Source: Phymorhynchus buccinoides (lineage: Eukaryota > Mollusca > Gastropoda > Neogastropoda > Raphitomidae). From it: DNA of 64,000 nt. How positions within the stretch are numbered: the stretch's first letter is position 1; each line of letters begins with the position of its first letter. Location: assembly GCA_017654935.2 (NCBI GenBank), contig CM065682.1, forward strand, positions 39,801,682 to 39,865,681, read 5' to 3'. The notes beneath the pieces are model-generated. The model was given only the letters and a program-made list of their open reading frames with translations. It had not been told where the DNA came from and searched no databases. A program made the translations under genes and the position numbers. Shown here in pieces: positions 37,649-38,508 of this stretch.

Positions 37649-38508
37649 TTAACCCTCATGTGCTGTCTTCTGCTCCAACGCAGTCACGAGAGTTACAGGG
37701 ACACTGGCAGTAGTACATTTTGCAACAGGCGCAGAATCAGGGACACTGACAGCAGCAGATTTCGCAACAGGCGCTGCATCAGAGACACTGGTAGCAGTAG
37801 ATCTTGCATCAGGTGCTGAAACAGGGACACTGCCAGATGTAGATTTGGTATTAGGTGCTGAAACAGGGACACTGGCAGTAGTAGATTTTGCAACAGGCGC
37901 AGAATCAGGGACACTGACAGCAGCAGATTTCGCAACAGGCGCTGAATCAGGGACACTGGTAGCAGCAGATTTGGCAACAGGCGCTGAATCAGGGACACTG
38001 GTAGCAGCAGATTTGGCAACAGGCGCTGAATCAGGGACACTGGTAGCAGCAGATTTGGCAACAGGCGCTGAATCAGGGACACTGGTAGCAGCAGCTTTGG
38101 CAACAGGCGCTGAATCAGGGACACTGGTAGCAGCAGATTTGGCAACAGGCGCTGAATCAGGGACACTGGTAGCAGCAGATTTGGCAACAGGCACTGAATC
38201 AGGGACACTGGTAGCAGCAGATTTGGCAACAGGCGCTGAATCAGGGACACTGGTAGCAGCAGATTTGGCAACAGGCGCTGAATCAGGGACACTGGTAGCA
38301 GCAGATTTGGCAACAGGCGCTGAATCAGGGACACTGGTAGCAGCAGATTTGGCAACAGGCGCTGAATCAGGGACACTGGTAGCAGCAGATTTGGCAACAG
38401 GCGCTGAATCAGGGACACTGGCAGCAGCAGCTTTGGCAACAGGCGCTGAATCATAATACGCACGTGCCCTCGCCGCCAGCTCTTCTTTCCTCTTGGCATA
38501 GCCTGAAC
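37649..38508 (-). CDS. WIPI-like exon 12: 14-residue tandem-repeat tail, copy 2
   Basis: Acceptor TTGAACAG, then SGYAKRKEELAARARAYYD, then directly 18 units of a 42-bp minisatellite read as PDSAPVAKSAATSV. The frame stays open throughout and ends with the unique stretch VTLVTALEQKTAHEG and a stop. The phase-1 join to exon 11 is exact. The tail is rich in Ala, Ser and Pro with one Lys per unit, probably disordered. The stop lies in a segment that also occurs in intron 11 (see the 15-bp array entries). Alternatively the GTAACT just after the repeats could act as a splice donor, giving a different C-terminus. Confidence 0.7.

Follow-up and report, generated by a model that had tools for sequence, protein, structure and literature searches.

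The closest known design for the locus described here, by analogy of architecture, is human CEL (carboxyl ester lipase), in which, according to PMC8692231, the last exon contains a VNTR of 33-bp units that encode 11 residues each and number from 3 to 23. Frameshifts in this VNTR are harmful (PMC8692231). Among human coding repeats, unit lengths favour multiples of three, as stated in PMC1273636. Also relevant is WIPI2d, for which PMC10851258 places lipid contacts at the FRRG motif and describes a structural model from which residues 362-425 were omitted.

What the gene examined in this study would share with CEL is a globular protein that ends in a minisatellite exon of whole-codon units, encoding a repeat tail of variable length. 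The CEL tail, however, is O-glycosylated and is carried by a digestive enzyme, whereas here the folded part is a PROPPIN-type propeller, the unit is 42 bp long and the stop codon comes from an inserted, intron-derived segment. With the WIPI2 and ATG18 PROPPINs, the gene shares an FRRG-bearing propeller followed by a C-terminal tail. It differs from them in its identity of ~35% to the top-ranked WIPI2 proteins, in blade-1 exons that were not located, and in a predicted tail of ~285 residues made up mostly of 14-residue repeats. Unlike coding tandem repeats generally, it combines in one array an upstream part that is possibly translated and a severed part, which together form an internal control.

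The window, by which we mean the whole 64,000-nucleotide stretch of Phymorhynchus buccinoides DNA that was analysed, contains two near-identical stretches of ~30 kb, each with a gene on the minus strand (copy A, ~884-31431; copy B, ~32328-61847). They are joined by the beginning of a third repeat region, C, which runs off the window end. Only the array of this third copy lies inside the window (62713-64000, minus strand); between the window edge and a stop its frame is open without interruption for 428 codons, and its preceding exons are outside the window. The locus appears to be a set of tandemly arranged WIPI2-like gene copies, a larger picture than the single array first described: the equivalent exon of copy A (6755-5920, with 17 units) and the array of copy C come in addition to what the first-pass annotation had reported. 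Over the gene body (40119-46618), A and B differ by 19 substitutions in 6.5 kb (~0.3%), and over exon 3 together with exons 5-11 by a single base in 912. Elsewhere, a comparison of 52443-58732 with 22096-28378 yields 6-19 one-base indels per 500 bp. The latter region looks like unpolished long-read sequence, so A/B comparisons across it are unusable. Gaps of 500 N are present at 344-843 and 21595-22094, the second of which adjoins it. Copies A and B could represent tandem paralogs of recent origin or a single locus assembled twice, and they are so alike that they hardly count as independent evidence; they are nevertheless unequal in unit number (17 vs 18) and in the extent of the inserted segment (E2, described below).

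The gene model of copy B comprises exons 5-12, all on the minus strand. Exons 5 (47510-47674) and 6 (45318-45443) each have an AG acceptor and a GT donor. Exon 7 (43705-43775) holds EFRRGV with the FRRG motif, exon 8 (43077-43172) encodes SNTETVHVF, and exons 9 (42364-42510) and 10 (41298-41408) encode further parts of the PROPPIN propeller. Exon 11 (40469-40554) ends at a GTAAGT donor and is in phase with exon 12 (37649-38508), which is composed of a 53-bp lead (SGYAKRKEELAARARAY), an array of 18 units of 42 bp, the terminal codons and TAA. All of exons 5-12 have an AG acceptor and all but exon 12 a GT donor; when joined they give a single open frame to the TAA, and exons 5-11 are free of stops and frameshifts. 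A possible exon 3 (49543-49652, minus strand) has canonical splice sites, with PROPPIN similarity not above noise, and a candidate for exon 1 (MAEAHNCFTAIRFSSDH; 54072-54124, minus strand) is followed by a GTAAGT donor. The copy A counterpart of this candidate is frameshifted and has no GT donor, but it falls within the low-quality region. Looking for exons 2 and 4 in the window by splice-site scoring, with motif filters, with pairwise probes and with profile HMMs produced no signal above noise; no exons encoding blade 1, or the missing part of blade 2, came out of the splice scan, the pairwise probes or the profile HMMs. These missing exons are the chief weakness of the gene model, and the gene could therefore be decayed or wrongly modelled.

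A profile query assembled from exons 3 and 5-11 plus the beginning of exon 12 matched the Pfam PROPPIN family (PF21032) with 120.8 bits against a cutoff of 30, query residues 35-262 (exons 5-10) aligning to positions 95-332 of the 345-position profile. The same query matched WIPI2 structures with up to 119 bits. The propeller of WIPI type that had been proposed upstream of the array is borne out by these matches. At E<=0.001, a protein search detected 385 homologs, the best 120 of which have 29-43% identity over 48-99% of the query. Where one of these 120 carries a name, it is mostly that of a WIPI or ATG18 protein; the two highest ranks go to WIPI2-like proteins from Babylonia (35%) and Littorina (36%). 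The FRRG lipid-binding motif is present (EFRRGV in exon 7) and SNTETVH is also retained. Of the 120 listed homologs, 24 were aligned and measured against the Babylonia protein (P0001): the other 23 animal PROPPINs show 43-83% identity to it, with 21 of the 23 at 51-61%. At ~35% the gene lies well below the range expected of a WIPI2 ortholog, a large gap even though the two figures are different identity measures. We therefore read the copy B gene, from its predicted protein, as a diverged WIPI2-like PROPPIN paralog and not as an ordinary WIPI2.

Exon 12 has the canonical acceptor TTGAACAG. Its join to exon 11 (40554-40469, donor GTAAGT) translates as ...VGAGTTGSGYAKRKEELAARARAYYDSAPVAK... in one frame that terminates at TAA, which confirms the exact phase previously claimed for this junction at 38508-37649, and it is this stop from which exon 12 is taken to be the last exon. 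The 18 units of 42 bp (38455-37700 on the minus strand) encode variants of PDSAPVAKSAATSV, exact in 9 of the 18, and run without a stop or frame change as originally described; Tandem Repeats Finder reports a period of 42, 18.0 copies, 93% matches and 0% indels. At 14 codons, the unit stays in frame with the folded domain, the architecture seen in CEL. In copy B, Ala makes up 27%, Ser 21%, Val 16% and Pro 14% of the 252 repeat residues, whose net charge is +1. The predicted tail, rich in these four residues and almost uncharged, is therefore probably flexible. A tryptic peptide predicted from the unit is, for example, SAATSVPDSAPVAK. In copy A, exon 12 (5920-6755, minus strand) has 17 units and its last residues are TAHIRVKFLFI, vs TAHEG in B. 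The counts of A (17 units) and B (18 units) agree with the suggestion that the tail can change in length in whole-unit steps, with the qualification that the two copies could be either paralogs or alleles. Three of the six frames of the consensus unit are free of stops, and an open frame alone is for that reason weak evidence of coding. When the consensus is shifted, one frame has a stop in every unit and the other is a hydrophobic, leucine-rich LIQRLLPNLLLPVS repeat. A tail-only protein search, among the 7997 candidates sharing most words, found one unnamed protein, which aligned to 53% of the query at 34% identity (E 1.4e-4). This lone match was not accepted as a homolog; distant or differently sized relatives could escape such a search. 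A literature search on the combination of WIPI2, tandem repeat and mollusc found no report, a result that applies to this combination of terms.

Other repeats and one additional reading frame are also present in the window. Arrays of a 48-bp unit (29827-31414 and 61298-61847) have a unit that is open on the minus strand (ESGTLEKATSTELPDR), but the arrays themselves break frame; near the right end of the window, a gap of ~100 bp separates them from C's 30-bp array. The 30-bp arrays (3771-4437, 35230-35751 and 61945-62331) read VPDSAHTVPS in one frame and are apparently related to the 42-bp unit. Adjoining repeat blocks of ~105 bp at 3088-3740 and 34532-35208 are in opposite orientation and contain TGACCA...TGGTCA near-palindromes. 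A minus-strand ORF at 56438-56851 (MASRKRKHTDF..., 136 residues) has two unnamed relatives, which cover 76% of the query at 53-54% identity, and is possibly a mobile-element gene.

The stop of exon 12 is supplied by a segment, E2 (36575-37695), which lies inside the 42-bp array and is a copy, at 87-92% identity, of its counterpart E1 in intron 11 (38619-40086). E2 gives the last codons, the stop and an AATAAA at 37466. Intron 11 also holds a 222-bp element (39968-40189) with perfect 14-bp inverted ends (39968-39981 and 40176-40189). E2 breaks off inside this element, whose left part sits in E2 and provides the last codons and stop of exon 12. On the 3' side of the stop, the 42-bp array resumes on the minus strand at 36094-36590 (the severed array of copy B), with its frame broken after the first 8 units. 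In copy A, only the right-hand part of E2 is present (5428-5984, AATAAA at 5753), and the severed array lies at 4455-5422 on the minus strand. Arrays of a 15-bp unit (CTGCACAGTTTATAG) flank exon 12 in both copies (5428-5744, 7449-8058, 37119-37457 and 39210-39851) and are part of the duplicated intron-11 segment. In the part of copy C within the window, there is no match of at least 60 bp to the E2/E1 segment. The last six units of exon 12 in copy B (units 12-17) and six consecutive C units differ at 5 positions in 252 bp with no indel, and past these matched units C continues, as judged by eye, with units resembling the severed array of B. This comparison suggests that a longer, uninterrupted array, as in C, is the older state and that A and B were shortened by the intron-derived insert. 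The earlier description of a minisatellite that has become a coding tail is accordingly too simple.

Each array was parsed against the cyclic 42-bp unit and frame-changing indel runs were counted. None was found in the exon-12 array of either A or B, one single-base run at the E2 edge being set aside in each. The severed array of A has 17 runs in 968 bp, and that of B has 9 in 507 bp, of which 3 are at the border with the inserted segment and ~6 are interior, some mutually offsetting. The clean part of copy C has none in 641 bp; when C is followed to 63085, it has two indels (+2/-2 at 63126/63116) that are ten bases apart and cancel. For exon vs severed array, the Fisher P in copy A is 8.9e-5 per base and 1.9e-4 per substitution, and in copy B it is 0.032, calculated from rounded counts. 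The pooled P of 7.7e-11, for which C was entered as having none, B counts were rounded and related units and copies were treated as independent, is too small because units and copies are not independent. No N gap interrupts the ~0.6 kb that separates the two A arrays. The first-pass annotation had used the array near the left end of the window as its frame-breaking comparison; that array does break frame, but it lies 3' of copy A, and the apt comparison for copy B is its own severed array, whose first 8 units are still in frame, a fact that counts against selection on the frame. Of the 428 open codons in copy C, the final 220 are degenerate and not clean repeats; among first-order Markov sequences of the same composition as C, 46 of 20000 keep one frame open. 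The link of C to a propeller is assumed, its preceding exons being outside the window.

The residues of the unit tell a different story from the frame. Across A, B and C, the distinct changes from the consensus unit comprise 8 synonymous and 31 nonsynonymous, where 29-31% synonymous would be expected without constraint. Seven units of the severed array of B have 4 synonymous and 10 nonsynonymous changes, with no clear difference from 8:31, and in the six units matched between B and C all 5 differences are nonsynonymous. Purifying selection on the unit residues was rejected on these counts (8:31, and 4:10 in severed units). With frame-changing indels only 3' of the stop and with this ratio of changes, it is the frame and not the residue sequence that looks selected. 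The constraint initially proposed for the array is therefore supported for frame, through the indel contrast, and not for residues.

The coding tail on a WIPI-type propeller, as first proposed, is supported by splice phase, intact propeller exons and the frame contrast, and we consider the tail probably real; these are all properties of the DNA sequence. Read more broadly, the array would be the coding last exon of a diverged, tandem WIPI2-like PROPPIN, with its frame under selection and with A and B shortened by the intron-11 insert, an account toward which we lean with modest confidence. The alternative of a neutral minisatellite that is open by chance, the message either stopping after exon 11 by read-through or using another last exon, draws on the three stop-free unit frames, on the stop at 40313-40311 that is met on reading through the exon-11 donor, on poly(A)-like signals, two of them preceding or at that stop (40373 and 40315) and one beyond it (40168), on the unconstrained residues and on the want of a convincing tail homolog among the 7997 candidates. 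It is in our assessment rather unlikely, since frame-changing indels are confined to the array 3' of the stop in both A and B, the acceptor and the phase of exon 12 both fit, and the frame of copy C stays open across its 220 degenerate codons. That the entire locus is a decaying tandem WIPI2 paralog, a pseudogene in which the tail is irrelevant, seems improbable: exons 5-11 have canonical splice sites and neither stop nor frameshift, FRRG and SNTETVH are retained, and an unconstrained copy this diverged would be expected to carry stops. These points stand against the failure of the splice scan, pairwise probes and profile HMMs to reveal blade-1 exons, an exon-1 candidate that is broken in copy A, and an identity of ~35% to the top-ranked WIPI2s compared with 51-61% of 21 of 23 animal PROPPINs to Babylonia, by differing measures.

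The state of the assembly bears on these readings in another way. It is quite possible, though less likely than not, that the assembly presents one locus twice, as A and B, and that the frame contrast consists partly of base errors in poorly polished arrays. The inequality of A and B in unit number and E2 extent, and the contrast of 0 and 17 indels between A arrays so close together and uninterrupted by an N gap, which recurs more weakly in B, argue against such an origin, whereas the ~0.3% difference over 40119-46618 (19 substitutions in 6.5 kb), the 6-19 one-base indels per 500 bp between 52443-58732 and 22096-28378, and the 500-N gaps at 344-843 and 21595-22094 argue for it. Its probability is not additive with those of the other readings, because a duplicated assembly is compatible with a coding tail. 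Taking these considerations together, we hold the coding-tail reading somewhat likelier to be right than wrong on the sequence evidence.

If the array is a coding tail, exon 12 would be translated to its end, and selection would purge frame changes while remaining nearly indifferent to residues. A shifted frame would give a stop per unit or the hydrophobic LIQRLLPNLLLPVS repeat; a repeat of the latter sort is possibly harmful, like the frameshifted CEL tails (PMC8692231), and such harm would explain why the frame is protected and the residues are not. Unit number would shift through exchange or slippage of 14-codon units (A, 17; B, 18). An intron-11 copy that includes part of the inverted-repeat element would have entered the array of A and B, leading to a shorter protein, and the array 3' of the new stop, no longer under selection, would have decayed. 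Given translation, there is about an even chance that the tail acts as a passive spacer or bristle on a membrane-bound propeller. The tuning of localisation or partner binding put forward in the first-pass annotation is conjectural. The full extension of this account, in which tandem WIPI2-like paralogs carry frame-protected, drifting minisatellite tails as length-variable bristles on autophagic membranes, some of them shortened by an intron-derived insert that left the severed part as a neutral control, is speculative and, as a whole, distinctly unlikely.

The contrast between the upstream and severed parts of the array is the most useful point of this locus. If the tail is translated, it would constitute a natural experiment in which, within one repeat of one gene, a translated part can be set against a part severed by an inserted stop, and selection on frame would become measurable apart from selection on residues. 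A core autophagy propeller family would, in that case, have gained a tail of variable length.
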